From positions 20,789 to 84,788 of the forward strand of contig JAFEEH010000198.1 of NCBI GenBank assembly GCA_018241185.1: a DNA stretch of 64,000 bases, written 5' to 3'. Position numbers and translations under genes: made by a program. The notes under the pieces were generated by a model. The model searched no databases. It had not been told where the DNA came from and saw nothing but the letters and a program-made list of their open reading frames with translations. The stretch is from Pseudomonadota bacterium. Its GTDB lineage: Bacteria; Pseudomonadota; Gammaproteobacteria; Burkholderiales; Burkholderiaceae_C. Shown here in pieces: positions 4,655 to 62,990 of this stretch. Position 1 is the stretch's first letter. Each line of letters begins with the position of its first letter.

Positions 4655-4710
4655 GCTACGATTTTCATAGCAGCCTGCGTACGCCCCATGGGCGCCGCAG
4701 GCTCTTTTTT
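4655..4710 (+). repeat. Dispersed repeat, copy 1, forming a terminator-like hairpin
   Basis: It begins with the inverted repeat GCTA...TAGC of the family and continues into a stem AGCCTGCG (4672-4679) paired with CGCAGGCT (4696-4703), followed by T6. This copy is more diverged than most. Its place 10 bases after the phoH-like stop suggests that it ends that transcript. Confidence 0.75.
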
Positions 4711-4749
4711 GCCCGAACGACGGCCGTGGCGGCGACGACGCCTGCCAGC

Positions 4750-4773
4750 CTCCTGACAACACGCTGTCAGGAG
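4750..4773. promoter_or_regulatory. Palindromic operator candidate before the VOC-EVE-GyrI-MGMT-WYL cluster
   Basis: CTCCTGACA and TGTCAGGAG form perfect 9-base arms around a 6-base spacer (ACACGC), 45 bp upstream of the VOC gene. The hairpin lacks a T tail, so a protein-binding operator is more likely than a terminator. The WYL regulator at the end of the cluster is the natural candidate ligand; this is inference. Confidence 0.55.
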
Positions 4774-4817
4774 CCCCCACGCAGCATGCAGCCTTCCTCA
4801 ACCCCTGGAGAAGCTCC

Positions 4818-5189
4818 ATGCACAGCGCCAACACCTGGTTCGAAATCCCCGTCACCGATCTCGCGACATCGCAGCGCTTCTACGAAGCCCTGCTCGACCG
4901 CCCCATGCGCGGGACCGAGGACGTCGGCGGCGACACCATGGCCGTCTTCGCGCACGAGAAGCCCGGCGCCGGCGGCTGCATCGTGCATCGCCCCGCGCAT
5001 GCAGGCGGCAGCGGCGGCACCATCGTCTACCTCGACTGCGCGCCCAGCGTCGAAGCCGCGCTGGCCCGCGCACAGGCTGCGGGCGGCAAGGTCGTCGTCG
5101 ACAGGACCTTGATCGCGCCCGGCATCGGCTACTTCGCGCAGGTGCAGGACCTGGACGGCAATCTGGTCGGCCTGCACGCGGCGGACTGA
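4818..5189 (+). CDS. VOC (glyoxalase/bleomycin-resistance fold) family protein
   Basis: This 123-residue single-module VOC protein starts [21 protein letters not shown], the typical first beta-alpha unit, and ends with [13 protein letters not shown], the strand that usually carries the metal-binding Glu. Here that position reads Gly-Leu-His, so metal binding is uncertain. It resembles the small PhnB/glyoxalase-like proteins common in proteobacteria, whose substrate is unknown. It is the first gene of a five-gene same-strand cluster and ends 2 bp before the EVE gene. The ribosome-binding site CTGGAGAA supports the start. Confidence 0.8.
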
Positions 5190-5191
5190 GC

Positions 5192-5722
5192 ATGCCGATA
5201 CGCCTGCCCCTGCGCCTGTACTCGCGGGCCCACGACGGCGCCGCGGCCGGTCCGCGGGCCGTCCCGTCCGACCGGGCGCCACGCAACTGGATCGCCGTCG
5301 CCAGCGCCGAGCACGCGCGTCGGGGCCGCGACCACGCGCCGACGGGTTTCATGCAGGTCGGCCACGGAAAGGAAGCGCCGCTGCGGCGCATCGCGCCGGG
5401 CGACCTCATCGCGTACTACGCGCCGTCCTCGGTGCCGGGCGGCAAGGACCGGTTCCAGTCCTTCGTGTCGCTGGGCACGGTGCTGCCGGGCGAACCGTAC
5501 ATGGCCGACATGGGTGGCGGCTTCGTGCCCTGGCGGCGCGATGTACGCTACGTGTCTGCGCGCGATGCGCCGATCGGCCCGCTGGTCCCTCGCCTGGCTT
5601 TCATCGACGATCCGTCGCACTGGGGCTCGAAGTTCCGTTTCGGCCTGGTGTCGATCGGCGATGGCGACATGCGATGCATCGCGCAGGCCATGGGCGCCGA
5701 ACTGGACGCGCTGGGCTTTTGA
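5192..5722 (+). CDS. EVE domain protein
   Basis: This 176-residue protein carries an EVE domain from about residue 32: [14 protein letters not shown], then a [24 protein letters not shown] segment in which the domain builds its ligand pocket. EVE belongs to the PUA-like fold, which binds modified bases in DNA or RNA. The first 30 residues are Arg/Ala-rich and may not be translated if an internal start is used, but the ATG at 5192 lies just after the VOC stop, which suggests coupling. Location in a cluster with an MGMT-like protein is suggestive but does not prove a nucleic-acid role. Confidence 0.75.
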
Positions 5723-5750
5723 CACCACAAGCGACGACGGAGACTGGGCC

Positions 5751-6203
5751 ATGAACGAACCAACCCGTGAACACGTGAATGCCGTCGAGGTTGCAGGCCC
5801 CCAGGTGCGCACCACCAACGCCGAGGAGACGAACCCGGCGACGGCCCGCATCGGCGGCCTGTGGAGCCGCTTCTTCGCCGAGGCGGTGCCTGCCCGCACC
5901 GAGGGGCGCACCGACGACGCCCGCAACTTCGGCGTCTATGCCCGCTACGCGTCCGACGCGCATGGCGCCTTCGACGTCATCGCCGGTGTGGCCGTGCGCG
6001 AGGACGGCATTGTGCGCGTGGAAGGCGGTGACTACCTCGTCTTCGACGCCCGTGGCGAGATGCCGCAGGCGGTGATGGAGGGGTGGTCGCGCATCTGGCA
6101 GTACTTCGACGCCCATCCCGAGGTCGTGCGGCGCTACCGCAGCGACTTCGAGGCCTACACCGGCCCGAACGATGCACGCATCTACATCGGCGTCGCGCAC
6201 TGA
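5751..6203 (+). CDS. GyrI-like/effector-binding domain protein
   Basis: This 150-residue protein matches the GyrI-like small-molecule-binding fold found alone or at the C-terminus of AraC/MerR regulators: an early segment with the L-W-S-R-F-F pattern, a central FGVYARYASDAHGAFDVIAGV strand, and a late WSRIWQYFDAH helix followed by an acidic FEAYTGPNDARIYIGV end. No DNA-binding domain is present. A GGAG-like site (GACGGAGAC) precedes the start. It probably binds a hydrophobic cationic ligand; the actual ligand is unknown. Confidence 0.65.
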   Translation: MNEPTREHVNAVEVAGPQVRTTNAEETNPATARIGGLWSRFFAEAVPARTEGRTDDARNFGVYARYASDAHGAFDVIAGVAVREDGIVRVEGGDYLVFDARGEMPQAVMEGWSRIWQYFDAHPEVVRRYRSDFEAYTGPNDARIYIGVAH

Positions 6204-6216
6204 CTGCGAGGCGGCG

Positions 6217-6684
6217 ATGAAGACCTGGCAGCAGAAGCTCACGGCCTATCCGCACCTGCCGACGGTGAAGCCCATTCCCGCATCCCTGCGACCGCGGCGC
6301 GGCGACGGCACGATCGCCACGCCCTCGCCGCAGGACGTCGAGGCGGCCATGCGCGCGGTGCCCGAACACCGGCTGACCACGGTCTTCGGCCTGGGAGAAC
6401 GTATTGCGGCCGCGCACCGCGCCACGATCGGTTGCACGGTGACCACGGCCATCTTCGCGCGGCTGGTGGCGCACGCGAGCGAAGAGGCAAAGCCGTCGAA
6501 CGTCGCGGCACGCGGTGCGCACGGCGTGCCTTGGTGGCGCACGCTCAAGGCCGGCGGCGAACTCAACCCGAATTACCCGGGCGGCATCGACGCCCAGATG
6601 GCGCGGCTCGAGGCGGAAGGCCACACCGTGGTGCAGCGCGGGCGGCGCTACTTCGTCGAAGAGTTCGAGAAGAAGCTCGTCTGA
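6217..6684 (+). CDS. MGMT/alkyltransferase-like protein (probable)
   Basis: This 155-residue protein has a C-terminal segment GVPWWRTLKAGGELNPNYPGG followed by a helix and EGH, resembling the DNA-binding part of alkyltransferase-like (ATL) proteins. The P-C-H-R active-site motif of true O6-methylguanine methyltransferases is absent, so it should not transfer alkyl groups by that mechanism. The central IGCTVTTAIFARLVAHASEEA helix contains the only cysteine. It lies 13 bp after the GyrI-like gene and 17 bp before the WYL regulator. The family call is tentative. Confidence 0.5.
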   Translation: MKTWQQKLTAYPHLPTVKPIPASLRPRRGDGTIATPSPQDVEAAMRAVPEHRLTTVFGLGERIAAAHRATIGCTVTTAIFARLVAHASEEAKPSNVAARGAHGVPWWRTLKAGGELNPNYPGGIDAQMARLEAEGHTVVQRGRRYFVEEFEKKLV

Positions 6685-6701
6685 CACGCAGCCCGGCCCC
6701 A

Positions 6702-7418
6702 ATGCGCCGCGCCGACCGCCTATTCCAGATCGTCCAGCTCATCCGTGGGCGGCGGCTGACGACGGCCGGCTTCCTCGCGCGGCGGCTGGAGGTGTCGGAG
6801 CGGACGGTGTACCGCGACGTGGCCGACCTGCAGCACCAGGGTGTGCCGATCGAGGGCGAAGCGGGCGTGGGGTATCGCCTGGGCGCGGGCTTCGATCTGC
6901 CGCCGCTGATGTTCACGCAGGACGAAGCCGCAGCGCTGACGGCGGCGGCGCGCCTCGCGCAGAGCTGGGTCGACCCGGCATTGGCCGCCGACATCGACAG
7001 CGCGCTGGGCAAGATCGTCTCGGTGCTGCCGGCTGCGGCGCGGGTGTCGGCCGAGGCCGTTGCGCTCTACGCGCCTGCGCTGGGCATGGACACGGCCACG
7101 CGCACGCACTTGCAGGCTCTGCGCGAAGCGGTGCAGGCGCGACGCAAGCTCAGGCTGGCCTACCGCGACGAGGGCGGCGCGCCGAGCGAACGCACCGTGC
7201 GGCCGCTGGGCTGCTTCTACTGGGGCAAGGTGTGGACGCTGTCGGCCTGGTGCGAACTGCGGCAGGACTTTCGCGGCTTCCGCGCCGACCGCATCGATGC
7301 ACTGCAGGTATTGGACGAACGCTTTCGCGACGAGCCTGGAAAGACCCTGGCCGACCTGCTGCGGCAGGTGCGCGCCGAATGCGCCGATCGCCCAGCACGA
7401 TCGCTACAGAAAAGATAG
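6702..7418 (+). CDS. YafY-type transcription regulator (HTH_11 + WYL domains)
   Basis: This 238-residue regulator has an N-terminal winged helix (residues 1-55, LARRLEVSERTVYRDVADL) and a C-terminal WYL domain that binds a ligand (LRLAYRDEGG...RTVRPLGCFYWGKVWTLSAWCE). It is the last of five tightly spaced genes and probably controls them, perhaps through the palindrome at 4750-4773. Oddity: the last four residues (LQKR) and the TAG stop are provided by a copy of the dispersed repeat that begins at 7403, so the original C-terminus was probably different. Confidence 0.85.
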   Translation: MRRADRLFQIVQLIRGRRLTTAGFLARRLEVSERTVYRDVADLQHQGVPIEGEAGVGYRLGAGFDLPPLMFTQDEAAALTAAARLAQSWVDPALAADIDSALGKIVSVLPAAARVSAEAVALYAPALGMDTATRTHLQALREAVQARRKLRLAYRDEGGAPSERTVRPLGCFYWGKVWTLSAWCELRQDFRGFRADRIDALQVLDERFRDEPGKTLADLLRQVRAECADRPARSLQKR

Positions 7419-7468
7419 CGGCTCACGCAAGCAGGACGGGCGCTACGAGCCTTTTTCTTCAATGAAAC
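7403..7468 (+). repeat. Dispersed repeat, copy 2, overlapping the end of the WYL gene
   Basis: A full-length copy: GCTACAGAAAAGATAGC inverted repeat, then the GC-rich middle with GGACGGGCGC, then a T-rich tail ending near TTCAATGAAA. The TAG in the inverted repeat is the stop codon of the WYL regulator. Confidence 0.85.
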
Positions 7469-7498
7469 TGGCTGCGGGGCAAGCCGCTTGCTGATGGC

Positions 7499-8908
7499 TC
7501 AGAAGTCGTCGCCGCCGCCCATGCCGGGCGCCAGGTTCTCGAACTTGGTGAGCGGCTTGAGGAAGGCCAGCTTCACCGTGCCGGTCGGGCCGTTCCGCTG
7601 CTTGGCGATGATGACCTCGGCGACGCCGGGCTCCTTGGAGTCCTTGTTGTAGTAGTCGTCGCGGTAGATGAACATGATCACGTCGGCGTCCTGCTCGATG
7701 GCACCGGACTCGCGCAGGTCGCTCATCATGGGACGCTTGTCGGTGCGCGACTCCACGCCGCGCGAGAGCTGCGACAGCGCGATCACCGGACATTTCAGCT
7801 CCTTGGCCAGCATCTTCAGGCCGCGCGAGATTTCGCCGACGGCCGTGGCGCGGTTCTCGTCGGCCATGCCGCCGGACACGCTCATCAGCTGCAGGTAGTC
7901 GACCACGATCAGCCCCAGCTGCCCGCACTGCCGTGCCAGGCGGCGCGCGTTGGCACGCAGCTCGCTGGAGGTGAGGCCCGGCGTCTCGTCGATGTGCAGG
8001 GAGATGGTGCGCAGCTTCTCGATGGCTTCGGTCAGGCGCGGCCATTCCTCGTCGGTGAGCTTGCCGGTGCGCAGGTGACCCTGGTCGATGCGGCCGATGG
8101 AGCCGACGATACGCACCGCCAGCTGGGCGGCGCCCATTTCCATCGAGAACACGGCGACGGGCAAGCCCTCGTTGAGCGCCACGTGCTCGGCGATGTTGAT
8201 GGCCAGCGAGGTCTTCCCCATCGAGGGCCGCGCCGCCAGCACGATCATGTCGCCGGCCTGCATGCCCGAGGTCATCTTGTCGAAATCGTAGAAGCCGGTC
8301 GGCACGCCCGTGATGTCGTTCGGGTTGTCCGCCATCTCGGTCACGCGGTCCAGCAGTTCGACCACCAGGGAATCCATGCTCTGGAAGCCCTGCTTCATCC
8401 GCGAGCCTTCCTCGCCGATGTTGAAGATCTTCTGCTCGGCCTCGTCGAGGATCTTGTCGACGGCCTTGCCCTGCGTGTTGAAGGCGTTGGTCGCGATCTC
8501 GTCCGAGGCAGAGATCAGCTTGCGCAGGATCGAGCGCTCGCGAACGATTTCGCCGTAGCGGCGGATGTTGCTCGCGCTCGGCACGTACTGCGCCAGCGAA
8601 TTCAGGTATTGCAGCCCGCCCACCTCCTCGGCCTTGCCGAGGTTCTGCAACTGCTCGTAGACGGTGATGACGTCGGCCGGCTTGTTGGCGTTGATCAGAC
8701 CGCCGATGGCCGCGTAGATCAGCTTGTGCTCGTGACGGTAGAAGTCGCCGTCGACGAGCAGGTCGCCCACGCGGTCCCAGGCGCCGTTGTCCAGCAGCAG
8801 GCCGCCCAGCACGCTGGATTCGGCTTCGAGGGAGTGCGGGGGGATGCGAAGCTGTGCGACCTGGCGATCCGGCGGATCGTTGTCGGCGTAGGAGAAGACG
8901 GCGGACAT
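7499..8908 (-). CDS. dnaB: Replicative DNA helicase
   Basis: This 469-residue hexameric helicase unwinds DNA at the replication fork. The N-terminal domain (about 20-120) begins PPHSLEAESSVLGGLL, a linker region follows, and the RecA-like ATPase starts near residue 185 with TGFYDFDKMTSG, Walker A ARPSMGKTS, VVDYLQLM (Walker B) and QLSRGVESR. Length and motifs match the family. It follows the ribosomal S6-PriB-S18-L9 operon on the same strand but is separated by a terminator and 261 bp. Its partner primase dnaG is at 61074. Confidence 0.97.
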   Translation of the reverse strand: MSAVFSYADNDPPDRQVAQLRIPPHSLEAESSVLGGLLLDNGAWDRVGDLLVDGDFYRHEHKLIYAAIGGLINANKPADVITVYEQLQNLGKAEEVGGLQYLNSLAQYVPSASNIRRYGEIVRERSILRKLISASDEIATNAFNTQGKAVDKILDEAEQKIFNIGEEGSRMKQGFQSMDSLVVELLDRVTEMADNPNDITGVPTGFYDFDKMTSGMQAGDMIVLAARPSMGKTSLAINIAEHVALNEGLPVAVFSMEMGAAQLAVRIVGSIGRIDQGHLRTGKLTDEEWPRLTEAIEKLRTISLHIDETPGLTSSELRANARRLARQCGQLGLIVVDYLQLMSVSGGMADENRATAVGEISRGLKMLAKELKCPVIALSQLSRGVESRTDKRPMMSDLRESGAIEQDADVIMFIYRDDYYNKDSKEPGVAEVIIAKQRNGPTGTVKLAFLKPLTKFENLAPGMGGGDDF

Positions 8909-9095
8909 GGGCGATTGATCCTAGAACTGCATGCGAACGAATGCGCTCGGAAAACTCCCCTCTTGCATCACCCGGGCCAAGGGCTGCGCTTTGGCGTGCA
9001 GTAGTGGCACGCGCAGCTTGATGCTGTGGACAAAGCTGGGGATTGCCGGTGCGCTGGCGGTGCATGCACAGTCAAAAGCTGTGGATGAGACAAAA

Positions 9096-9127
9096 CCAAA
9101 AAACAAAGGGCTGCCCGAAGGCAGCCC
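9096..9127 (-). terminator. Terminator of the rpsF-priB-rpsR-rplI operon
   Basis: On the minus strand GGGCTGCC, loop TTCG, GGCAGCCC is followed by TTTGTTTTTT. It lies 43 bp after the rplI stop. The rest of the 261-bp gap before dnaB holds no gene that I can support, only two one-mismatch DnaA-box-like sequences. Confidence 0.85.
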
Positions 9128-9169
9128 CTGTTGCTTTCAGGCCGCAGAGCGGACTGATCGCAACGGCTG

Positions 9170-9622
9170 TTACGCCGTCTCGCCGTACACCGTCACGGTG
9201 ATCTCGACCACCACGTCGGTGTGCAGTTGCACGGACACGGTGGTGTCGCCCACGGTCTTGATCGGGCCGTTGGGCAGGCGCACTTGCGACTTGGCGACCT
9301 CGTAGCCCTGCTTCTTCAGCTCGTCGGCCACGTCGTGGTTGGTGACGGAACCGAACAGGCGGCCGTCGACGCCGGCCTTCTGCGTCAGCTTGACGGTCGT
9401 GCCGCCGAGCTTCTCGCCCTGCTTCTGCGCTTCGGCCAGCTTGGCGGCGGCAGCCTTCTCGAGCTCGGCGCGCTTGGCTTCGAACTCGGCCTTGGCCGCT
9501 TCGGTGGCGCGGCGTGCGCGGCCCGAAGGGATCAGGAAGTTGCGTGCGTAGCCGTCCTTGACCTTGACGATCTCGCCCAGCGCACCGAGGTTGACGACCT
9601 TGTCCAGAAGAATGACTTGCAT
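9170..9622 (-). CDS. rplI: 50S ribosomal protein L9
   Basis: This 150-residue protein has the L9 layout: an N-terminal 23S rRNA-binding domain ([17 protein letters not shown], then [18 protein letters not shown]), a long charged connecting helix (about 50-75) and the C-terminal domain with [15 protein letters not shown]9 helps hold reading frame and organise the large subunit. It is the last gene of the rpsF-priB-rpsR-rplI operon, 13 bp after rpsR, with a good AAGGAGCGA ribosome-binding site. Confidence 0.98.
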
Positions 9623-9635
9623 GGTGGGTCGCTCC

Positions 9636-9917
9636 TTAGATGCGGTGCTGGTCGCTGTACGGGACCAGGGCCAGGAAGCGCGCGCGCTTGATGGCGGTGT
9701 TGAGCTGGCGCTGGTAGATCGCGCGCGTGCCGGTCAGGCGCGCGGGGATGATCTTGCCGTTCTCGCTGATGAAGTCGCGCAGGGTGTCGATGTCCTTGTA
9801 GTCGATCTCTTCGACGCCGGCGACGGTGAAGCGGCAGAAGCGCTTGCGCTTGAACAGCAGCGACTGGGTGTTGCGCTTCGGACGCTTGTCCTTGTTGAAT
9901 TTCTTGAACGTGGCCAT
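9636..9917 (-). CDS. rpsR: 30S ribosomal protein S18
   Basis: This 93-residue small-subunit protein contains the S18 signature: [19 protein letters not shown], then the [22 protein letters not shown] block that binds the S6-S18 rRNA platform. It sits between priB and rplI as in other betaproteobacteria and is made together with its partner S6 from the same operon. The N-terminus is a little longer and more basic than in Escherichia coli, which is normal for this group. Confidence 0.98.
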
Positions 9918-9938
9918 TTCGGGACCCTCTATCGAAAA

Positions 9939-10247: not shown

Positions 10248-10260
10248 ACCAATGAGCGAA

Positions 10261-10641: not shown

Positions 10642-10751
10642 GGCACTCCTTGTGGATTGAAGCCCGTGGTCATCCGATGCAGACATCGATCGACCCCGGA
10701 CCTGGAAAGCCACCCGCCGCGTCCAGGCAGTGTGGCAAGGCAAAGCCCACG

Positions 10752-11430: not shown

Positions 11431-11485
11431 CCTCAGGCGACAGCGGTGGAACACGCGGCGGCTTGCGCCCTCGCCCCAGGGGGCC

Positions 11486-14915: not shown

Positions 14916-14949
14916 GACGTTTTGCGAACGCCGCCGGACAGTTCGGTTT

Positions 14950-15013
14950 ACTACAGTTTTCATAGCGGCTCGCGCACATCCAACGAGCGCTGAAAGCCAA
15001 TTTTTCTTTCAAA
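14950..15013 (+). repeat. Dispersed repeat, copy 3
   Basis: It starts with CTACAGTTTTCATAGC and ends with a T-rich tail TTTTTCTTTCAAA. The middle is diverged (fewer GC pairs) compared with other copies. It fills much of the gap between ppsR and the marR gene. Confidence 0.7.
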
Positions 15014-15042
15014 TTTAGTAAGCCTAGTCTTATGATTCAGGC

Positions 15043-19884: not shown

Positions 19885-19996
19885 TTTTGGGCGCGTTCAA
19901 TTGGCTTTACCGAAACTTCACCGCTCCCAAAACCATAGCTGCGCGCGCCCGCTGGCCGGGCGCCGGCGCCACTTTTGACTGCACATCGGCATGGCG

Positions 19997-23139: not shown

Positions 23140-23152
23140 TGCAGCCCCTGCA

Positions 23153-23216
23153 ATTTCAAGCCAAATTGGCCTCCAGCGCCCGTGGGGCGGGCGCGAGCAG
23201 CTACGAAATCGATAGC
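23153..23216 (-). repeat. Dispersed repeat, copy 4
   Basis: Read on the minus strand it starts GCTATCGATTTCGTAGC, continues with the GC-rich middle (CGCCCCACGGGCGC) and ends CCAATTTGGCTTGAAAT. It begins 14 bp after the apbE stop and ends 8 bp before the ribosome-binding site of the flavoreductase gene. Confidence 0.9.
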
Positions 23217-23233
23217 ATTCTGCGGAGGGTCGC

Positions 23234-29688: not shown

Positions 29689-31137
29689 TCAGGTGCCGCG
29701 CTCGAACACGGCAATCGACTCCACGTGCGCCGTGTGCGGGAACATGTTGATCGCCCCTGCCAGCGTGCAGCGATAGCCCGCCTGATGCACCAGCAGCCCC
29801 GCGTCGCGCGCCAGGGTCGAGGGGTTGCAGCTCACGTAGACGATACGGCGCGGCGCGGTCCAGCCTCCCGTGCGCAACTCGGGTTGCTGCTCCAGCTCGG
29901 CCAGCGCCTTGGCCAGCGCAAAGGCGCCCTCGCGCGGCGGGTCGACCAGCCAGCGGTCGGCGCGGCCGTCGGCCACAAGCATCCCGGGCGTCATCTCGAA
30001 GAGGTTGCGCGCTACAAAATTCGTAGCTGCCAGCGCCCGTCCCGCGGGCGTTTCGGCCCGATTTCGTTCGAAGTTCTGCTGGGCACGCGCCACGAGCACC
30101 TCGCTGCCCTCGATGCCCAGCACCTCAGCCGCCTGTGTCGCCAGCGGCAGCGTGAAGTTGCCGAGGCCGCAGAACCAGTCGATCACGCGCTCGCCAGCCT
30201 GCACGTCCAGCAGCCGCAGCGCGCGCGAGACCAGCACGCGGTTGATGTGCGGGTTGACCTGCGTGAAGTCGGTCGGCTTGAAGGGCATCGTGACGCCGAA
30301 GTCCGGCAGTTCGTAGGCGAGCTGCGGGCCACCCTCTTCCAGCCGATGCACGGTGTCGGGCCCCTTCGGCTGCAGCCACCATTGGACGCCGGCATGCGCG
30401 GCCGCGAAGTCCTTCAGGCGCTGCGCGTCGGCACCGCTCAGCGGCTCCAGGTGACGCAGCACGAGGGCGATCACGCCGAGCTGCGTGGTGCCCGGCGCGT
30501 CGCCGCAGGCCACCTCGATCTGCGGGCAGGTCTGGCGCGCGTCGAGCGAGTCGATCAACCGGCGCAGCGGCACCAGCATGTCGCTCACGGTGCGCGGCAG
30601 CACGGGGCACACGGTCATGTCGGCCACGTAGCGGCTCTTGCGCTCGTGGAAGCCGATCAGCGTCGTGCCCTTTTTCTCCACGTAGCGCACCGACAGCCGC
30701 GCACGGTAGCGGTAGTGCCAGCTCGGGCCCTCGAGCGGGCGCAGCAGCGTCTCGGGCTTGACCTTGCCCAGGTGCCACAGGTTGTCTTCCAGCGCACGCT
30801 GCTTCACGGCGACCTGCGCCGCCGCGTCCAGGTGCTGCATCTTGCAACCGCCGCAGGCACCGGCATGCAGGCCGAAATGCGGGCAACCCGGCCTCACTCG
30901 CTGCGAAGACTCGCGGCGCAGCGCCGACAGCGTGCCCTGCTCCCAGTTGTTCTTCTTGCGATGTACGTTCACGCGCACCTGCTCGAAGGGCAGTGCGCCG
31001 TCGATGAACACCACCTTCCCGTCGGGCCGGTGGGCAACGCCCTGCGCGTCGAGGTCGATCGATTCGACGGTCAGCCAACCATCGTCGGAGGGTGGCGTCT
31101 CGGGCGCCGCTGTGTCGTTCTGGGTCGAATCCGTCAT
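29689..31137 (-). CDS. rlmD: 23S rRNA (uracil-5)-methyltransferase RlmD
   Basis: This 482-residue enzyme methylates U1939 of 23S rRNA. It has a TRAM-like N-terminal domain ([15 protein letters not shown]), the [4Fe-4S] cysteines ([18 protein letters not shown] plus C in MTVCPVLP), the SAM site [14 protein letters not shown], and the catalytic Cys in [15 protein letters not shown] at 31137 is preferred because homology starts shortly after; an upstream ATG at 31206 would reach a repeat copy. Oddity: residues around [20 protein letters not shown] come from repeat copy 5, an apparent in-frame insertion in the methyltransferase fold. Confidence 0.92.
30011..30072 (+). repeat. Dispersed repeat, copy 5, inside rlmD
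   Basis: It starts GCTACAAAATTCGTAGC, contains the CAGCGCCCGT...GCGGGCG centre, and runs into GGCCCGATTTCGTTCGAA. It lies wholly inside the rlmD frame (opposite strand), where it encodes a loop between the SAM site and the conserved ARNLFE strand. Confidence 0.85.
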
Positions 31138-31215
31138 CGGGTGATTGTCGTTGGCCGGTGGTCCGCCCGAGGCCGACGGCGCCGGGTCACCCACGCCGCC
31201 CGGCATGCCGGAAAC

Positions 31216-31281
31216 GCTACGAAATCCATAGCTGCCTGCGCAAGCGGGACGGGCGCTGGAGGCCCATTTGGCTCATGAAAA
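31216..31281 (+). repeat. Dispersed repeat, copy 6
   Basis: It starts GCTACGAAATCCATAGC, then GCCTGCGCAAGCGGGACGGGCGC in the middle, and ends CCCATTTGGCTCATGAAAA. It lies between rlmD and nlpD. Confidence 0.88.
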
Positions 31282-31348
31282 ACAATGCCGAGCCGGCAAC
31301 ATGCGCCTGGCTCGGCAGGATGAATGCCGCGCCTGCGGCCGCTGCCGG

Positions 31349-44849: not shown

Positions 44850-44883
44850 GGCGGCTATTGTGGCCGCGCCACGCGGCCATTTA

Positions 44884-44947
44884 CTTTCAAGCCAAAAGTG
44901 CCCGCAGCGCCCGCGGGGTGGGCGCAGGCAGCTATCAATTCCATAGC
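44884..44947 (-). repeat. Dispersed repeat, copy 7
   Basis: On the minus strand it starts GCTATGGAATTGATAGC, contains the CGCCCACC...GCGGGCGC centre, and ends CTTTTGGCTTGAAAGT. It fills the gap between the divergent uvrC and earP genes, where their promoters should be. Confidence 0.9.
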
Positions 44948-44984
44948 AACCGCCATGCGCCGGGGTGCCACGGACAATCGCCCC

Positions 44985-46100
44985 ATGCCGACGCCCGACA
45001 CCGACCGCCTGCGCTGGGACCTGTTCTGCCGCGTCATCGACAACCACGGCGACCTGGGCGTGTGCTGGCGTCTGGCCCGCCAGCTCGCCGACGGCGGCGA
45101 CGCGGTGCGCCTGTGGATCGACGACGGTCGTGCGCTCGCCTGGATGGCGCCCGCGGGCCACGCGGGCGTCACGGTGATCGACTGGGGCGACGCGGGCGCC
45201 GTGCAGCGGGCCGTGGCTGAGGCGCCGGCGCCCGATGTGCTGGTCGAGGCCTTCGGCTGCGACCCGGCGCCCGAACTCGTCGCGCACTTCGCCCGCCACG
45301 CCGGCACGGCGCGCCGCCACGCCTGGATCAACCTCGAATACCTCTCGGCCGAACCGTACGTGGAACGGTTGCACGGCCTGCCCTCCCCCGTCTTCCGCGG
45401 CCCGGGCGAGGGCATGACCAAGTGGTTCTTCTACCCGGGCTTCACGCCGGCGACGGGCGGGCTGCTGTGCGAGCCGGGCCTGGTCGCGCAACGAGACGCC
45501 TTCGACAGGCGCGCCTGGCTCGCCGGACAGGGCATCGCCTGGCGGGGCGAGTCGCTCGTGTCCCTCTTCTGCTACGAGCCGCCTGCGCTGGCGCCGCTGC
45601 TTCGGCAGTGGATGGACGACCTGGAACCGACACGCCTGCTGGTCACCGCCGGCCGCGCAAACAACGCCGTCGAGCAGGCCCTGAAGATGCTGGAAGCCCC
45701 GCCGGACGGGCGCGGCGCGCTATCGATTTCATATCTGCCGCATCTGCCCCAGCCCGCGTTCGACGCGCTCCTGTGGTCCTGCGACCTGAACCTCGTGCGG
45801 GGCGAGGATTCCTTCGTCCGCGCCCACTGGGCAGGCGCCCCCTTCGTCTGGCAGACCTACCCGCAGGACGACGACGCCCACCATGTCAAGTTGAACGCCT
45901 GGCTGGACTGGCTCGATGCGCCGGCCTCGCTACGCGCTTTCCACCACGCCTGGAACGGCTTTTCGGACGCACCGGCGCTGGCGCCCGACGCGGCCACGCT
46001 GGCCGGTTGGTGCGCTGCCGCGCAGGCAGGCCGCGCGCGGCTGCAGGCCCAGGACGACCTGGCCACCCAGCTGCGCGGCTTCGTCACCCAAAAAAGCTAA
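44985..46100 (+). CDS. earP: EF-P arginine rhamnosyltransferase
   Basis: This 371-residue glycosyltransferase adds rhamnose from dTDP-rhamnose to Arg32 of elongation factor P. It shows the family patterns [38 protein letters not shown] and [20 protein letters not shown], including the conserved Asp and the R-G-E-D-S loop that bind the sugar nucleotide. It is directly upstream of efp, whose product has Arg32. The ATG at 44985 and an earlier in-frame one at 44955 are both possible. Confidence 0.95.
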
Positions 46101-49290: not shown

Positions 49291-49294
49291 GCGG

Positions 49295-49360
49295 GTTTCA
49301 TTGACCGAATCGGGCCGCAGCGCCCGTCCAGCGGGCGCGAGCAGCTATCTTTTCGATAGC
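49295..49360 (-). repeat. Dispersed repeat, copy 8
   Basis: On the minus strand it starts GCTATCGAAAAGATAGC, contains CGCCCGCTGGACGGGCGC and ends CCGATTCGGTCAATGAAA. It begins 5 bp after the LOG stop. Confidence 0.9.
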
Positions 49361-49387
49361 GATCGAGGTTGACCCGGCGTGCTCTTG

Positions 49388-51399: not shown

Positions 51400-51411
51400 G
51401 GGCGCCTCGGC

Positions 51412-51475
51412 TTTTCAAGCCAAATCGGGCTGCAGCGCCCGTCCTGCCTGCGAGAGCAGCTATGGATTCGATAGC
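51412..51475 (-). repeat. Dispersed repeat, copy 9
   Basis: On the minus strand it starts GCTATCGAATCCATAGC, has TCTCGCAGGCAGGACGGGCGC in the middle and ends CCGATTTGGCTTGAAAAG. It lies between rmuC and the MFS gene, both on the minus strand. Confidence 0.9.
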
Positions 51476-51496
51476 AACCGGCTGGCGCGGGCACCG

Positions 51497-57282: not shown

Positions 57283-57351
57283 GCACGCCTCCCGTACCGA
57301 TCACCCCACTCCAATCCCCCAACACCACAAAGACCTCAGGAGATTCCATCC

Positions 57352-57753
57352 ATGAAAAAGCACCTGTTGATGATGGCCATTGCCTCGACCTGCTTCATCG
57401 GCGTTCACGCCAGCGCCATGACCAGCGACGAGTACAAGGCCGGCAAGGACAAGATCGAAGCCGACTACAAGGCCGCGAAGGCCCAGTGCGGCACGCTCAA
57501 GGACAACGCCAAGGACGTGTGCGAGAAGGAAGCCAAGGGTAAGGAGAATGTTGCCAAGGCCGAGCTGGAGCAGCAATACAAGCCCAGCGCCTCTCACCAG
57601 CGCAAGGTCGCCGAGGAAAAGGTGAAGGCCGACTATGAAGTCGCCAAGGAAAAGTGCGACGACATGAAGGGCGACGCCAAGGACGCCTGCGTGAAGGAAG
57701 CCAAGGCGATGGAAGCCAAGGGCAAGGCCGACATCAAGGCCATGAAGATGTAA
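57352..57753 (+). CDS. Exported hypothetical protein with duplicated C-x10-C modules
   Basis: This 133-residue protein has a signal peptide (about 1-22, ending in VHASA) and a Lys/Ala/Glu-rich helical mature part. Two similar units are seen: AKAQCGTLKDNAKDVCEKEAK and AKEKCDDMKGDAKDACVKEAK, each with cysteines 11 residues apart. These could form disulfide-stapled helical hairpins in the periplasm. Proteins of this kind occur next to CsbD genes in betaproteobacteria (from memory). Function is unknown. Confidence 0.8.
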   Translation: MKKHLLMMAIASTCFIGVHASAMTSDEYKAGKDKIEADYKAAKAQCGTLKDNAKDVCEKEAKGKENVAKAELEQQYKPSASHQRKVAEEKVKADYEVAKEKCDDMKGDAKDACVKEAKAMEAKGKADIKAMKM

Positions 57754-57775
57754 TCAGGCCTGCGGCCTTCAGCGG

Positions 57776-57802
57776 AAACGGCGCCCTCGGGCGCCGTTTT
57801 TC
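57776..57802. terminator. Terminator between the Cys-repeat protein and the thioesterase
   Basis: AAACGGCGCC, loop CTCG, GGCGCCGTTT, then T-rich on the plus strand. It serves two convergent genes. Confidence 0.9.
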
Positions 57803-57807
57803 TTTGC

Positions 57808-58257
57808 TCAGGCCTTCGCGTCGACCTTGAGCGGGCCGATCACGCGCAGCAATTCCTGCGGCAAAGGTACCGGCCGCTGGCTGGCCCGATCGACGTAGAC
57901 GTGGACGAAGTGACCCTGTGCGGCGGCAGTGGGCGCCCCTTGCGCGAACAGGCCGATCTCGTAGCGCACGCTCGAACTGCCCACGTGCGCCACGCGGATG
58001 CCCGCCTCCACCATCTGCGGAAAGGCCAGCGGCGCGAAGTAGTTGCACTGCGTCTCGACCACGAAACCGACGGTGCTGCCGTGGTGGATGTCGAGCGCCC
58101 CCTGCTCGATCAGCAGGGCATTGACCGCCGTGTCGAACCAGCTGTAGTACACGACGTTGTTGACGTGACCGTAGAGGTCGTTGTCCATCCAGCGGGTGGG
58201 GATCGCGCGGAAGGCGCGGTAGCTGCTGCGGGGCTGGGGCGAGGGGCGGCTGCTCAT
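57808..58257 (-). CDS. Acyl-CoA thioesterase, YbgC/4HBT hot-dog family
   Basis: This 149-residue hot-dog-fold protein has RWMDNDLYGHVNNVVYYSWFDTA, with the Asp-x-x-Gly-His-Val-Asn-Asn motif of the 4-hydroxybenzoyl-CoA thioesterase group, and HVGSSSVRYEIGLF. It likely hydrolyses acyl-CoA thioesters; specificity is unknown. It starts with an ATG after CACC without a strong ribosome-binding site and is convergent with the Cys-repeat gene. Confidence 0.9.
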   Translation of the reverse strand: MSSRPSPQPRSSYRAFRAIPTRWMDNDLYGHVNNVVYYSWFDTAVNALLIEQGALDIHHGSTVGFVVETQCNYFAPLAFPQMVEAGIRVAHVGSSSVRYEIGLFAQGAPTAAAQGHFVHVYVDRASQRPVPLPQELLRVIGPLKVDAKA

Positions 58258-58370
58258 GGTGGGGCGGCATTCTGCCAGCGACGTCGGCCACGGCCTGTCG
58301 CGTCGGCCACGCCTTCCCGGTGCCGCCAAAACGCCGGTTCCAGCCTCGAGTTAGGGGTCCGCGCCTAATT

Positions 58371-58393
58371 TGCTGCATTGCAACAAAAAGAGC
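58371..58393 (+). promoter_or_regulatory. Phasin operator box 1 (PhaR-type candidate)
   Basis: A 23-base box (TGCTGCATTGCAACAAAAAG plus AGC) immediately upstream of the phasin -35. It repeats at 58431 with 21 of 23 identical bases, exactly 60 bp away. The core GCAACAAAAAGA is similar to PhaR-binding repeats described for phasin promoters of related bacteria. Confidence 0.65.
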
Positions 58394-58422
58394 TTGAAGT
58401 GCGGGATGGCCGCTGCCATACT
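58394..58422 (+). promoter_or_regulatory. Phasin promoter
   Basis: TTGAAG (58394-58399) and CATACT (58417-58422) are 17 bp apart and lie exactly between the two operator boxes. Transcription would start near 58429. Confidence 0.7.
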
Positions 58423-58430
58423 TCACCTCA

Positions 58431-58453
58431 TGCTGCACCGCAACAAAAAGAGC
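58431..58453 (+). promoter_or_regulatory. Phasin operator box 2 (PhaR-type candidate)
   Basis: Second 23-base box (TGCTGCACCGCAACAAAAAG plus AGC), covering the first transcribed bases. A repressor bound here would block initiation. Confidence 0.65.
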
Positions 58454-58496
58454 AGCAACCCGACACCGCCCATTCACTCAATTTCTGGAGATCCCC

Positions 58497-59048
58497 ATGG
58501 CACTCACCGCTGACCAAATGATCGCTGCCCACAAGGCCAACGTCGAAGCCCTCTTCGGCCTCACCACCAAGGCTTTCGAAGGCGTCGAAAAGATCGTCGA
58601 ACTGAACGTGCAAGCCTCCAAGGCCGCCCTGAGCGAAGCCGCCGGCACCACGCAAGCGCTGCTGAGCGCCAAGGACGCACAGGAGCTGCTGACGCTGCAA
58701 GCCAGCCTGATGCAGCCCATCGCCGAGAAGACCGCTGCCTACAGCCGTCACCTGTACGAAATCGCCCAGGGCACCAGCGCCGAGTTCACCAAGGCCTTCG
58801 AAGCCAAGGCAGCCGAAGCCCAGCAAACCTTCGTCGGCCTGGTCGACAGCGCGGCCAAGAACGCCCCCGCCGGCTCGGAAACCGCCGTCGCCATGATGAA
58901 GAGCGCCGTGGCTGCCGCCAACAACGCCTTCGAATCGGTGCAAAAGGCCGTGAAGCAAGCGTCCGACGTCGCCGAAGCCAACTTCAACGCCGTGTCGGCC
59001 CAGGCCGTCAACGCCGCCAAGACCGCCACCGCCAAGGCCAAGCGCTGA
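58497..59048 (+). CDS. phaP: Phasin (polyhydroxyalkanoate granule protein)
   Basis: This 183-residue Phasin_2-family protein is almost wholly amphipathic helix, with the pattern [20 protein letters not shown] and [20 protein letters not shown] followed by an Ala-rich C-terminus. It coats polyhydroxybutyrate granules and controls their size and number. GGAGATCCCC precedes the ATG. The twin boxes around its promoter suggest control by PhaR, which senses the polymer. A terminator follows at 59149. Confidence 0.93.
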
Positions 59049-59148
59049 TCGGCAGCCGGGCCTGGCGCCCGGCCGCGAATCGAATCGATCGGGGTGCGCC
59101 CGCTGCGCACCCACAAGTTGTCTCCTTGGGTTCCTCGGGACCCAATTC

Positions 59149-59178
59149 AGGCCCCGTCATCGCGACGGGGCCTTTTTT
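59149..59178 (+). terminator. Terminator of phaP
   Basis: AGGCCCCGTC, loop ATCGC, GACGGGGCCT, then T7; 100 bp after the phasin stop. Confidence 0.93.
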
Positions 59179-59238
59179 TCGCCCGAACGGGCCCCGCCTA
59201 TCATTGGCGGCTTCCCCATTCACAGCGAGACACTCACC

Positions 59239-59997
59239 ATGCAGATCGAGGGCAAGGTTTTCATCGTCACGGGCGGCGCTTCGGGCCTGGGTGAGGGCAC
59301 GGCCCGCATGCTGGCCGAGCTTGGCGGCAAGGTCGTCATCGCCGACATGCAGGCCGACAAGGGCCAGGCGGTCGCCCAGGAGATCGACGGCGTCTTCGTC
59401 AAGTGCGACGTCAGCCAGGAGGTCGACGGCCAGGCCGCGGTGGCTGCGGCGCTGAAGCTGGGCAAGCTGGTCGGCCTCGTCAATTGCGCCGGCATCGCGC
59501 CGGCCGAGAAGACCGTGGGCAAGAACGGCCCGCACGCGCTGGCCGTGTTCAGCAAGACCGTCACCGTCAACCTCATCGGCAGCTTCAACATGATCCGCCT
59601 GGCCGCGGACGCCATGGCGAAGAACGAGCCCGAGCCCACCGGCGAGCGCGGCGTGCTCATCAGCACCGCCTCGGTCGCGGCGTACGACGGCCAGATCGGC
59701 CAGGCCGCGTACAGCGCCAGCAAGGGCGGCGTGGTGGGCATGACCTTGCCGATCGCCCGCGACCTGGCGCGCAGCGGCATCCGCAACATGACCATCGCGC
59801 CCGGCATCTTCGGCACGCCCATGCTGTTCGGCATGCCGCAGGAGGTGCAGGACGCCCTGGCCGCCAGCGTGCCCTTCCCCTCGCGCCTGGGCACGCCGCA
59901 GGACTACGCGAAGCTGGCCAGGCACATCATCGAGAACGACATGCTCAACGGCGAGGTGATCCGCCTGGACGGCGCGATCCGGCTTGCACCGCGCTGA
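59239..59997 (+). CDS. Short-chain dehydrogenase (3-hydroxyacyl-CoA dehydrogenase type II-like)
   Basis: This 252-residue SDR has the cofactor loop [21 protein letters not shown] in the NAD strand, the catalytic Ser ([10 protein letters not shown]) and Tyr-x-x-x-Lys in [12 protein letters not shown]. Overall pattern, including [15 protein letters not shown], fits the 17-beta-HSD10/3-hydroxy-2-methylbutyryl-CoA dehydrogenase group, which acts in fatty- or branched-acid breakdown. It lies between the phasin and yihY genes. A dispersed repeat begins 18 bp after its stop. Confidence 0.92.
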
Positions 59998-60014
59998 GTC
60001 TGGGCCAGCCAGCT

Positions 60015-60079
60015 GCTACGTTTTTGATAGCTGCCCGCGCCCGTCCCGCGGGCGCTACAAGGCTTTTTTGCTCAAGAAA
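60015..60079 (+). repeat. Dispersed repeat, copy 10, overlapping the end of yihY
   Basis: It starts GCTACGTTTTTGATAGC, has the GCGCCCGTCCCGCGGGCGC hairpin and ends GGCTTTTTTGCTCAAGAAA. The TAG stop and last eight codons of the opposite-strand YihY gene lie inside it. Confidence 0.92.
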
Positions 60080-60972
60080 CTGCGACGCTCCAGCCGCTCG
60101 TGCCGCGCGATCACCTGGGCGCCGAAGAGCACCAGCGTGGCGGCGATCTCCAGGCTCAGCAGCACCACGATGGCGGTCGTCAGCGAGCCGTAGACCACGT
60201 TGACCTGCGACAGCGTCGAGAAGTACCACACCAGCACCCGACGCGTGAGCTCCCACAGCAGCGCCGCCGTCACGCCGCCGATCAGCGCATGCCGGAACGA
60301 CAGGCGCCCGACCGGCATCACGAGGTACAGCGAGGTCAGCATGAAGACCTCGCCGCCCAGTCCCACCAGGTACAGCAGCACGCCCGACACGCCGCTGAGC
60401 GACCAGCTGCGGCCGAACAGGTCGACCTGCTCCTGCCCGATCAGCTGCAGCGCCCCAGACACCAGCGTGACCAGCAGCAGTCCGAAGCACAGGCACAGGA
60501 TGTAAAGGTAGGGCATCACCACCGACACCAGCATGTGCCGGCCGTGCGTGGCCTTGCGATGGTGGAAGATCACTGCCATGGCGCTTTCCAGCACCGTGAA
60601 GGCGAGCGAGCTGAAGAACACCATCGTGACGAAGAGCACCGGGCCCATCAAGTCGCGGTGATCGAGGAAGTTCGCGAGCTCGTGCACGACCGCGCCGGAC
60701 TGCCCCGGCAGCAGCCAGCCCAGGTAGCGGCCGATGGTGGACAGCAGCAGGTCCTGCGGCAGCACGTGCGACAGGACGATCACCGACAGGATCAGCAGCG
60801 GCACGATGGACAGCAGCGCGTAGTAGGCGACGGCCCCGGCCAGCAGCAGCCCCTGGTTGGCTCGGAACTCCTTGAGCGCCTGCCACATGAAGCCCGGCGG
60901 GTTGCGCCAGAGGGTGGCCCCGTCCGCGGCGGCGGGCGGGGGCGCGTCGGTGGGCAGCAAGGGCTCGGGCAT
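60055..60972 (-). CDS. YihY/virulence factor BrkB family membrane protein
   Basis: This 305-residue inner-membrane protein has six hydrophobic segments (from GLLLAGAVAYYALLSIVPLLILSVIVL at 40-66) and the family motifs GGVTAALLWELTRRVLVWYFS and YGSLTTAIVVLLSLEIAATLVLFGAQV. The E. coli homologue was once misnamed RNase BN; the role is unknown. Its C-terminal residues FLSKKAL and stop come from repeat copy 10, so its natural end was probably different. Confidence 0.9.
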   Translation of the reverse strand: MPEPLLPTDAPPPAAADGATLWRNPPGFMWQALKEFRANQGLLLAGAVAYYALLSIVPLLILSVIVLSHVLPQDLLLSTIGRYLGWLLPGQSGAVVHELANFLDHRDLMGPVLFVTMVFFSSLAFTVLESAMAVIFHHRKATHGRHMLVSVVMPYLYILCLCFGLLLVTLVSGALQLIGQEQVDLFGRSWSLSGVSGVLLYLVGLGGEVFMLTSLYLVMPVGRLSFRHALIGGVTAALLWELTRRVLVWYFSTLSQVNVVYGSLTTAIVVLLSLEIAATLVLFGAQVIARHERLERRSFLSKKAL

Positions 60973-61073
60973 GGTGTGGCGGCAGTATGACGTCGCCCGG
61001 GCACACGACGGCGTAGGAGAGGCTTGCGTATCATCGGCCGCTCCCCTGCCCCGCCTGCCTCTGACGCGCCGCC

Positions 61074-62990
61074 ATGGCGATCCCCCAGACCTTCATCCAA
61101 GAGCTCATCGCTCGCGCCGACATCGTCGAGATCGTCGGCCGCTACGTGCAGCTCAAGAAGGGCGGCGCCAATTTCATGGGGCTGTGCCCCTTCCATGGCG
61201 AGAAGTCGCCGTCCTTCTCGGTCAGCCCGACCAAGCAGTTCTATCACTGCTTCGGCTGCGGGGCGCACGGCAACGCCATCGGCTTCCTGATGGAGCACGG
61301 CGGCATGGGCTTTCGGGAAGCCGTGCAGGACCTGGCCGGCCAGTACGGCCTGGAGGTGCCGGAGGACGACGCCTCGCCCGCCGAGCGCGAACGTGCCGCG
61401 GCGCAGCGACAGAAGCAGGCCACGCTGAGCGACGTGCTGGAGAAGGCGGGCGAGGCCTATCGCAAGCTGCTGCGCCAGTCGCCGCGCGCGATCGAGTATT
61501 TCAAGGGCCGCGGCGTGTCGGGCGAGGTCGCCAAGGCCTTCGGGCTGGGCTACGCGCCCGAGGGCTGGCGCACGCTGGCGGGCGTGTTTCCGGACTACGC
61601 CGACCCGCTGCTGGCCGAGAGCGGCCTGGTCATCGTCGGCGAGGACGGCGAGGACAAGCGCTACGACCGTTTCCGCGACCGCGTGATGTTCCCGATCCGC
61701 AACGTCAAGGGCGAATGCATCGGCTTCGGCGGCCGCGTGCTGGGCGACGAGAAGCCCAAGTACCTCAACTCGCCCGAGACGCCGGTCTTCAGCAAGGGGC
61801 GCGAGCTCTACGGCCTGTTCGAGGCCCGCAGCGCACTGCGCGACAAGGGCTACGCGCTGGTCACCGAGGGCTACATGGACGTGGTCGCGTTGGCCCAGCT
61901 GGGCTTCGCCAACGCCGTCGCCACGCTGGGCACCGCCTGCACGCCGGAACACGTGCAGAAGCTGTTCCGCTTCACCGACGCGGTGGTGTTCAGCTTCGAC
62001 GGCGACGCCGCCGGCCGCCGGGCCGCACGCAAGGCGCTGGACGCCGCCCTGCCCTTCGCCACCGACGTGCGCAGCGTGAAGTTCCTGTTCCTCCCGGCCG
62101 AGCACGACCCCGACAGCTTCATCCGCGAGCACGGCGCCGAGGCCTTCGCGCGCTTCGTGGCCGAGGCGACGCCGCTGTCGCGCTTCATGGTCGAGGCCGC
62201 GCGCGAGGGCTGCGACCTGGGCACGGCCGAGGGCCGCGCTCACATGGCGGCCAACGCACGGCCGCTGTGGAGCGCGCTGCCCGACGGCACGCTCAAGCGG
62301 CAGATGCTGGGTGAGCTGGCCGAACTGATCCAGCTCGACAGCCGCGAACTGGGCGGCCTGTGGGCCGCCGCACCGGCACCGCGCGCCGCGCCACGGAGTG
62401 AAGAGCGCTATCAAAAAGAGAGCTGGTCGCGCCCGGACGACGCGCCTTTCGAGCCTTTTTCGCCCCAGGAAGGCCGCCGCAGCGGCCGTTCATCGCGCCG
62501 TGGGCCACCGCCGGCGCGCGGCCGCACCCAGCCGCTCTCGCGGGCCGACGTCGCGGTGCGACTGCTGCTGTCGCAACCGGCCGAATGGGACGCCCTGTCG
62601 CACGAGTTGCACGCGCTGCTGTGCGAGCTGCCGGGCGAACACGGCGAGTTCTTCACCTGGTTCGACAGCCAGGTCCACGAGCACGGCATCCAGCCCTGGG
62701 CGGCCTTGCGCGAAGGCCTGCGCGGCCTCAACTTCGAAGCGCTGGTCGACCGGCTGATGGCGCCGTCGGCCGCCGCCAGCCCCGAGGCCGAGGCGGCCGC
62801 ACCCGCCGACGTGGCGGCGGAATTGCGCAACGTGCTGGACTTCATGCTGGACGAGCACCTGAAGGCCCAGCAGACCGCGGTGCTCGCCACGGTGGGCAGC
62901 GACCCGCAGGCCCTGGAGCGCTACAAGGCGCTGGAGCGGCGCCGGCTGGAGTTGCGCCAGCGACTGGCGCGCAGCCGCTACACCGGCTGA
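61074..62990 (+). CDS. dnaG: DNA primase
   Basis: This 638-residue enzyme makes RNA primers for replication. It has the zinc-binding CHC2 domain (GLCPFHGEKSPSFSV, HCFGCGAHG), the catalytic core with TOPRIM (LVTEGYMDVVAL, FDGDAAGRRAARKALD) and a DnaB-binding C-terminal domain (about 500-638). In the linker before that last domain, residues near 445-465 (EERYQKESWSRPDDAP) are encoded by repeat copy 11. It is upstream of rpoD. The usual rpsU gene does not precede it here; yihY does, on the other strand. Confidence 0.97.
   Translation: MAIPQTFIQELIARADIVEIVGRYVQLKKGGANFMGLCPFHGEKSPSFSVSPTKQFYHCFGCGAHGNAIGFLMEHGGMGFREAVQDLAGQYGLEVPEDDASPAERERAAAQRQKQATLSDVLEKAGEAYRKLLRQSPRAIEYFKGRGVSGEVAKAFGLGYAPEGWRTLAGVFPDYADPLLAESGLVIVGEDGEDKRYDRFRDRVMFPIRNVKGECIGFGGRVLGDEKPKYLNSPETPVFSKGRELYGLFEARSALRDKGYALVTEGYMDVVALAQLGFANAVATLGTACTPEHVQKLFRFTDAVVFSFDGDAAGRRAARKALDAALPFATDVRSVKFLFLPAEHDPDSFIREHGAEAFARFVAEATPLSRFMVEAAREGCDLGTAEGRAHMAANARPLWSALPDGTLKRQMLGELAELIQLDSRELGGLWAAAPAPRAAPRSEERYQKESWSRPDDAPFEPFSPQEGRRSGRSSRRGPPPARGRTQPLSRADVAVRLLLSQPAEWDALSHELHALLCELPGEHGEFFTWFDSQVHEHGIQPWAALREGLRGLNFEALVDRLMAPSAAASPEAEAAAPADVAAELRNVLDFMLDEHLKAQQTAVLATVGSDPQALERYKALERRRLELRQRLARSRYTG
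62407..62466 (+). repeat. Dispersed repeat, copy 11, inside dnaG
   Basis: It starts GCTATCAAAAAGAGAGCTGG, has a diverged GC-rich middle (GCGCCCGGACGACGCGCC) and ends TTTCGAGCCTTTTTCGCC. It lies in frame in the linker between the primase core and the DnaB-binding domain. Confidence 0.78.

Follow-up and report, generated by a model that had tools for sequence, protein, structure and literature searches.

A dispersed 66-bp repeat of Comamonadaceae is under purifying selection at its sites and has decayed in one lineage

A 64,000-nucleotide stretch of a Burkholderiales genome (GenBank assembly GCA_018241185.1, contig JAFEEH010000198.1, positions 20,789 to 84,788; hereafter the window) carries many copies of one short palindromic repeat, which raises the question of whether this element is a passive mobile sequence or a site that its host keeps and uses. 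An earlier note on the window had claimed 11 copies, every one of which is present where it was placed, and a 12th, beginning at 19921 on the plus strand, was absent from that list; eight copies lie on the plus strand and four on the minus strand. A covariance model built from these 12 copies (R1) matched them at full length with 60–79 bits, as it must by construction, and the next best match in the window reached 22.6 bits (Table 1). The copies align over about 66 bp rather than through the palindrome alone, and information content is at background level on both flanks, giving the element sharp borders. In 464 kb of the same genome (the window and 20 stretches of 20 kb), R1 produced 58 matches at E < 0.001, of which 57 were used and a partial one (L042:15944-15982) was dropped; the window accounts for 12 of the 57, and the remaining 400 kb for 45. 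Fifty-six of the 57 span exactly 70 positions, the length of the model, and one spans 69; because only full-length matches were kept, copies with large indels are under-counted. A whole-genome search returned at least 150 full-length matches, all at E ≤ 4.6e-10, and extrapolation to 5.34 Mb gives roughly 600–650 copies per genome. One copy was searched against plasmid and phage collections without a match, and carriage by such elements was rejected.

We examined the orthologous sites of 33 copies from the window's own genome (G000) in three relatives from its genus, G071, G108 and G100. Sites in three regions were anchored by their flanks alone, yielding 29 in G071, 22 in G108 and 23 in G100. 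Taking a score above 25 as a recognisable element, G071 retained one at 25 of 29 sites and G108 at 21 of 22, compared with 5 of 23 in G100. Substitutions were counted after omitting sites with at least 10 deleted positions (two in G071, none in G108 and six in G100). At 17 conserved positions of the element, substitutions amounted to 28/459 (6.1%) in G071, 12/374 (3.2%) in G108 and 63/289 (21.8%) in G100, and at 18 variable positions to 103/482 (21%), 71/393 (18%) and 71/300 (23.7%), respectively; the flanks differed by 15.2%, 16.4% and 17.0%. The difference between conserved and variable positions was thus pronounced in G071 (p 4.6e-12) and G108 (p 6.1e-12), but not in G100 (p 0.62). The 12 sites common to all three relatives gave the same picture, with 5.4%, 2.5% and 21.1% at conserved positions and 19.4%, 13.0% and 22.2% at variable positions in G071, G108 and G100, and at these sites the conserved positions of G100 changed faster than its flanks. 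Among noncoding sites (the coding list was set by hand), the element remained at 2 of 16 in G100, compared with 19 of 22 in G071 and 15 of 16 in G108.

A tree of three proteins, including those of rlmD and of a transposase associated with repetitive extragenic palindromes (REPs), called RAYT, grouped G100 with G000, G071 and a further relative, G105, to the exclusion of the carriers G108 and G106, with support of 0.96. The compared proteins hardly differ between G071 and G105, and locus L082 is probably the same record as G108:C32. Since G100 is nested among carriers, the decay of the element in G100 looks derived; it was seen in all three sampled regions. The sites are therefore under purifying selection, which has been lost in one lineage, G100, across the sampled regions. 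This selection is the new result of the analysis.

The copy inside rlmD provides a second view of the constraint. It occupies a loop that is eight residues longer than in RumA (PDB 1uwv). The element occupies this position in many genera. A set of 80 named loci was chosen by best match to the window's rlmD and is not a random sample, and some of its loci are short; 26 of the 80 have the palindrome GCTAY-N7-RTAGC at the same rlmD codons. Third-position GC in these 26 loci was 0.21 in the palindrome codons versus 0.84 in the rest of rlmD, and 0.72 versus 0.86 in the other named loci. Within the window's genus, the five carriers had 0.30 in the palindrome codons versus 0.93 elsewhere in rlmD, and the other 10 genomes, G100 included, had 0.89 versus 0.90. 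The protein stretch was kept in both groups, whereas the DNA palindrome was kept in carriers only, and the rlmD copy is an ancient copy within the gene. Other copies of the element were present nearby at 20 of the 26 loci with an intact rlmD palindrome versus 8 of the 54 without (p 8.6e-8), with exceptions in both directions, such as Hydrogenophaga bin L148, where 11.7 kb around an intact palindrome hold no further copy. One shuffle of each of the 80 loci gave no matches at the limit used; as a separate control, the score limit for a multi-genus search of stretches exceeded by 3 bits the best match in three Markov shuffles of each stretch. The state of the palindrome changed 15 times on the rlmD tree, and of nine independent pairs on that tree, an average of 3.7 had the palindrome and the other copies changing in the same direction, 0.0 in opposite directions and 5.3 without a difference.

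The simplest explanation for a constraint that held at many sites and was lost from them jointly in a single lineage is a partner acting in trans. We consider the element to be an ancient dispersed DNA site of about 66 bp in Comamonadaceae, kept by selection and used by a trans-acting factor, a reading to which we would give about an even chance against all others. What, if anything, REP-like repeats are for is an old question, and in this family selection can be measured site by site: it offers a synonymous-site test in a housekeeping gene and a lineage with natural loss of constraint beside close carriers.

The earlier note had compared the family with REPs and miniature inverted-repeat transposable elements (MITEs), and the likeness held for copy number, length, mostly intergenic location and scarcity in divergent gaps, while mobility remained unsupported and the link to RAYT failed. 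A passive mobile repeat of this kind, spread by a RAYT-type transposase and decaying at unequal rates, would account for the copy number, the mostly intergenic place and the palindromes, and the G000 genome has a RAYT-like gene (NF047646, 73 bits against a curated cut-off of 80) whose 3' end is adjoined by a single element copy. However, such a gene was present in all 15 genomes of the genus, including the seven without an element match at E ≤ 1e-4 (eight have matches), and in the family sample 24 of the 28 carriers had it, as did 57 of the 72 genomes without a match. The element flanked RAYT on both sides in none of the 15 genus genomes, as judged with R1 and by eye, and on one side in three at E ≤ 1, one at E 0.13. 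The sequence upstream of RAYT looked alike by eye in 14 of the 15, so the gene is probably at the same locus. The GT(A/G)G head of RAYT-associated REPs was not seen, positions 15-18 of the element being mostly ATAG, with G at position 15 in 7 of 56 copies, and the consensus ends are not inverted repeats of each other, as the terminal repeats of a MITE would be. The HxH motif of RAYT is intact in G100 and changed in two other genus genomes, G101 and G102. Common to carriers and non-carriers, with this motif intact in G100 and no element on both sides, RAYT was rejected as the driver.

Nor did comparison of orthologous gaps with and without the element, which the earlier note had proposed, favor mobility. 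Six sites were missing or truncated (four in G100 and two in G071), none ended at the borders of the element and most keep remnants, indicating deletion of older copies; six sites are few and leave room for target-site duplications. There is no sign of recent movement of the element. Since purifying selection at the sites is not expected of a passive mobile repeat, this reading is weakened further, and we regard it as unlikely.

Two observations concern RAYT itself. In G102 (L175) and G101 (L176) the HxH motif is changed to HFR and EFQ, respectively, although the reading frame is uninterrupted, a sign that these copies may be domesticated or dying. In addition, inspection by eye of the 15 genus genomes (L162-L176) showed, downstream of the RAYT stop codon, a slightly varying block like TGATCTGTCCCCAATT ... 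GAATCTGACCCCAATTAAA, which RAYT itself may recognize.

Molecular drive like that of DNA uptake sequences is more doubtful still. If element-bearing DNA were preferred for uptake, its letters would persist without use at each site and decay after loss of the receptor, fitting the widespread decay in one lineage, the mixture of genic and intergenic copies, the lack of orientation and the genus-specific versions. However, known DNA uptake sequences are about 10–12 bp, which an element of 66 bp with three inverted repeats far exceeds, and most copies are intergenic. The ComEC gene (PF03772) was found in 14 of the 15 genus genomes, including G100 and six of the seven without element matches; its distribution does not follow the element, and ComEC was rejected as the missing factor.

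The anatomy of the element bears on whether it acts as DNA or RNA. It begins with an AT-centered palindrome, GCTAY (positions 3-7), N7 and RTAGC (15-19), followed by a GC-rich inverted repeat with CGC at 26-28 and GGGCG at 38-42, by a tract centered on TT at 54-55 (an A-tract and a weaker third inverted repeat), and by a loose GGCTTGAAA-like tail. The three parts described in the earlier note are present, but copies vary in the 5' arm of the GC-rich hairpin, and only some of them have the complete tail GGCC-N-TTT-N-GCTTGAAA. Positions C4, T5, A17, G18, C26 and G27 are invariant in 56 of 56 copies, and the near-random positions include 8, 33 and 52. Other genera have GCGCTTG...CAAGCGC in place of GCGCCCG...CGGGCGC. 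Both A/T tracts are mostly AAAA, AATT, ATTT or TTTT, and TpA steps are avoided: among 200 copies, TpA was observed 0.08 times per tract against 0.45 expected in the first A-tract (counted in the 112 copies where it is pure A/T), and 0.03 times against 0.29 in the second (148 such copies).

The place of the copies was judged against genes called with our own simple open reading frame caller, whose start positions are rough. Six of the 12 window copies (4653, 7401, 23149, 49293, 51408 and 60013) overlap a stop codon or lie at most 20 bp from one, in agreement with the earlier claim of at least six. Forty-eight of the 57 G000 copies are intergenic, distributed as 12 copies against 28 convergent gaps of at least 60 bp, 30 against 141 tandem gaps and 6 against 54 divergent gaps. 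A set of 159 copies from six genera (37 of them within genes and three at stretch edges unclassed) gave 0.68 copies per convergent, 0.33 per tandem and 0.11 per divergent gap of at least 60 bp; these figures are ratios and not fractions of gaps, since copies in smaller or overlapping gaps were counted too. The stretches from G072, G015, G004, G010, G085, G088, G070 and G023 were chosen around known matches, and their densities are biased. In tandem gaps of the six genera, 42 copies lie in the sense and 35 in the antisense orientation (p 0.49), indicating no preference. Likewise, 83 copies drawn from the 146 matches listed for G072 showed no replichore strand bias, the best split over all possible origins (45 of 83) being reached by 500 of 500 permutations.

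Five copies (L036:17777, L033:17466, L036:11165, L038:5220 and L038:10689) encode an N-terminal stretch that by eye is signal-peptide-like, in the same frame of the element, e.g. MKNIAARAALAGAAALFGLNAQAG. Genes for secreted proteins or lipoproteins seem to have incorporated the repeat at these five sites.

With many copies at stop codons and with inverted repeats, the element might be an RNA-level feature of 3' ends, either a terminator or a hairpin that protects mRNA. Covariation was assessed in 194 copies (the 200 minus six from G100) against column shuffles, and 13 of 18 pairs were without clear excess. The pairs in excess, matched by at most 15 of 500 shuffles, were 22-45, 28-40, 29-39, 30-38 and 51-57, and some excess pairing in hairpin 2, the GC-rich one, speaks for the RNA reading. 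Little covariation makes recognition of sequence a better fit than conservation of a fold, which hairpin 2 partly supports, and conserved RNA structure was rejected as the basis of the element. Against an RNA role there are also the balanced orientation in tandem gaps and the palindrome kept at synonymous sites in rlmD, antisense to that gene. A search with Rfam 15 matched only two tRNAs in the window and nothing at the element, and the copy at 51408, searched alone, had no match at E ≤ 1. Taken together, an RNA-level element appears improbable. Concerted evolution, in which gene conversion would homogenize copies and so yield conserved letters without function, is very improbable, since the variable positions evolve no more slowly than the flanks (0.214 and 0.181 versus 0.152 and 0.164 in G071 and G108) and orthologs by eye keep their own variants.

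We return to the reading of a selected DNA site used in trans. The absence of orientation together with little covariation favors recognition at the DNA level, as does its combination with the palindromes and A-tracts. The factor would probably be a DNA-binding protein that recognizes the palindromes, and it may have been lost or changed in lineages where the sites decay. E. coli REP/BIME sites, which are bound by chromosomal proteins such as gyrase or IHF, have been proposed to act at gene ends where converging transcription builds twist, and by analogy we speculate that the present sites might organize or relieve the chromosome there. More tentatively, and with somewhat less than even confidence, we propose that Comamonadaceae possess a chromosome-wide nucleoprotein system undescribed in open-licence PMC papers, comprising a putative DNA-binding protein and several hundred or more 66-bp gene-end sites, each of them selected, and that loss of the protein, for example in G100, leads to decay. 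Measurable selection and its loss in G100 make the use of such repeats a testable question: the missing factor should be a gene that is common to carriers and absent or broken in G100.

Several observations weigh against the reading. Orthologs fell below the score limit at 4 of 29 sites in G071 and 1 of 22 in G108. Identity over the whole element is about that of the flanks (0.84 versus 0.83 in G071 and 0.85 versus 0.84 in G108), only the conserved positions being slower, and those were defined on G000 copies. At the 12 common sites, the flanks of G100 are somewhat more diverged (16.4%) than those of G071 (11.5%) and G108 (12.8%). The tree that nests G100 rests on three proteins, with support of 0.571 and 0.366 at neighboring branches, and the rlmD association, controlled for the tree, has the right direction but is not significant (median p 0.125). 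The excess pairing in hairpin 2 belongs here too. Finally, no trans-acting factor was found; RAYT and ComEC were checked, and the gene content of G100 was not compared with that of the carriers.

Partial precedents are in print. Table 7 of PMC5217627 (2017) gives GCTTAT(N)5AAGCG in Acidovorax ebreus and ATAGCT(N)22CAAAAG in Polaromonas naphthalenivorans as "potential novel motifs", with 114 and 125 copies, respectively, most of them intergenic; convergent genes flank 44 and 34 of them. In letters and spacing, the first agrees with hairpin 2 of the G085-type consensus; the second shares ATAGCT with the element, but its spacing misfits the window's version. As judged by the printed motifs, both may belong to the present element. 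In the available part of that paper they stand as half-motifs in two genomes, and the whole element, the family and the selection are absent. The REPs with RAYT described in the available part of PMC2817692 resemble the element as short intergenic palindromic repeats in up to hundreds of copies, here too with an RTAG tetramer just 5' of a GC-rich inverted repeat. However, the element, at about 66 bp, is longer than the REPs in Table 1 of that source, its tetramer is mostly ATAG, no cognate RAYT is flanked by it and its abundance is independent of RAYT. The Beta-proteobacterial repeat element (BRE; PMC3110155, as excerpted) is likewise dispersed in Betaproteobacteria including Comamonadaceae, with some copies within genes, but is 75–91 bp in Bordetella, partly tandem and present in at most 29 copies per genome, a comparison made by description only. 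VeiPR1 of Verminephrobacter eiseniae (PMC3975124, as excerpted), also palindromic and abundant, makes up about 2.3% of the genome of a bacterium close to Acidovorax, but is described as unique to that species; this comparison too is by description only.

To examine the prevalence of the element, we searched genome samples with R1, which is tuned best to the window's genus and less sensitive in other groups; counts per genome are lower bounds at 150 (genus), 50 (family) and 16 (order). Among the 15 genus genomes, five had at least 150 matches, G100 had 38, two had 5 and 2, and seven (G101, G103, G104, G107, G109, G110 and G111) had none at E ≤ 1e-4. The family sample contained matches at E ≤ 1e-4 in 28 of 100 genomes (99 genera). 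In the order sample, scoring was limited to the best 16 candidates of each genome, and most match-free genomes are unlisted; 4 of 300 genomes had matches at E ≤ 1e-5, all from the window's family and including its own genome. Thus, matches were found only in the window's family in the samples searched. Copies elsewhere in the locus were present at 28 of the 80 rlmD loci, from Simplicispira, Acidovorax, Giesbergeria, Curvibacter, Ramlibacter, Rhodoferax, Hylemonella, Oryzisolibacter and records without a genus; the Variovorax, Hydrogenophaga, Pseudacidovorax and Limnohabitans loci among the 80 had no copy elsewhere at the score limit. The rlmD loci bear out the earlier note's statement that similar sequences occur in other Comamonadaceae.

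The window copies are collected in Table 1. The dnaG copy stands past the part matched by the primase family model TIGR01391 and is probably in a linker.

Table 1. Copies of the element in the window, with R1 scores and their state in relatives.
Feature	Position	Strand	Setting	R1 score (bits)	Relatives
Copy	4653..4722	+	just 3' of stop of PhoH-like gene	62.5	recognisable in G071 and G108, decayed in G100
Copy	7401..7470	+	overlaps stop codon, convergent genes	69	recognisable in G071 and G108, decayed in G100
Copy	14948..15017	+	tandem genes	67.5	recognisable in G071 and G108, weak in G100
Copy	19921..19990	+	repeat families D1 and D8	60.4	recognisable in G071 and G100, not in G108
Copy	23149..23218	-	apbE-like / cysJ-like gap	78.9	retained in G071 and G108, with most of it deleted in G100
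Copy	30009..30078	+	within rlmD coding sequence, antisense, residues 378-399	67.1	
Copy	31214..31283	+	nlpD-like / rlmD gap	77.9	retained in G071 and G108, without its 5' third in G100
Copy	44880..44949	-	divergent genes	76.4	recognisable in G071, also in G100
Copy	49293..49362	-	convergent genes	74.1	missing in G071 through a gap exceeding the element
Copy	51408..51477	-	tandem genes	75	86% identity over the element in G071
Copy	60013..60082	+	convergent genes	74.9	94% identity over the element in G071
Copy	62405..62474	+	within dnaG, residues about 443-465	61	no ortholog anchored for the site
Possible decayed copy (weak)	45675..45737	-	within gene	22.6 (E 0.004)	

Another dispersed repeat, about 52 bp long (TTCGCGTCCTTTGCGTAACCTTCGCGTCCTCTGCGTCC), was noticed at L037:3943-4003 (G000 contig C112). 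Dozens of matches to it were listed in G100, often as neighboring inverted pairs, and more in G071 and G108. This repeat looks REPIN-like and seems to be commoner in G100, where the main element decays.

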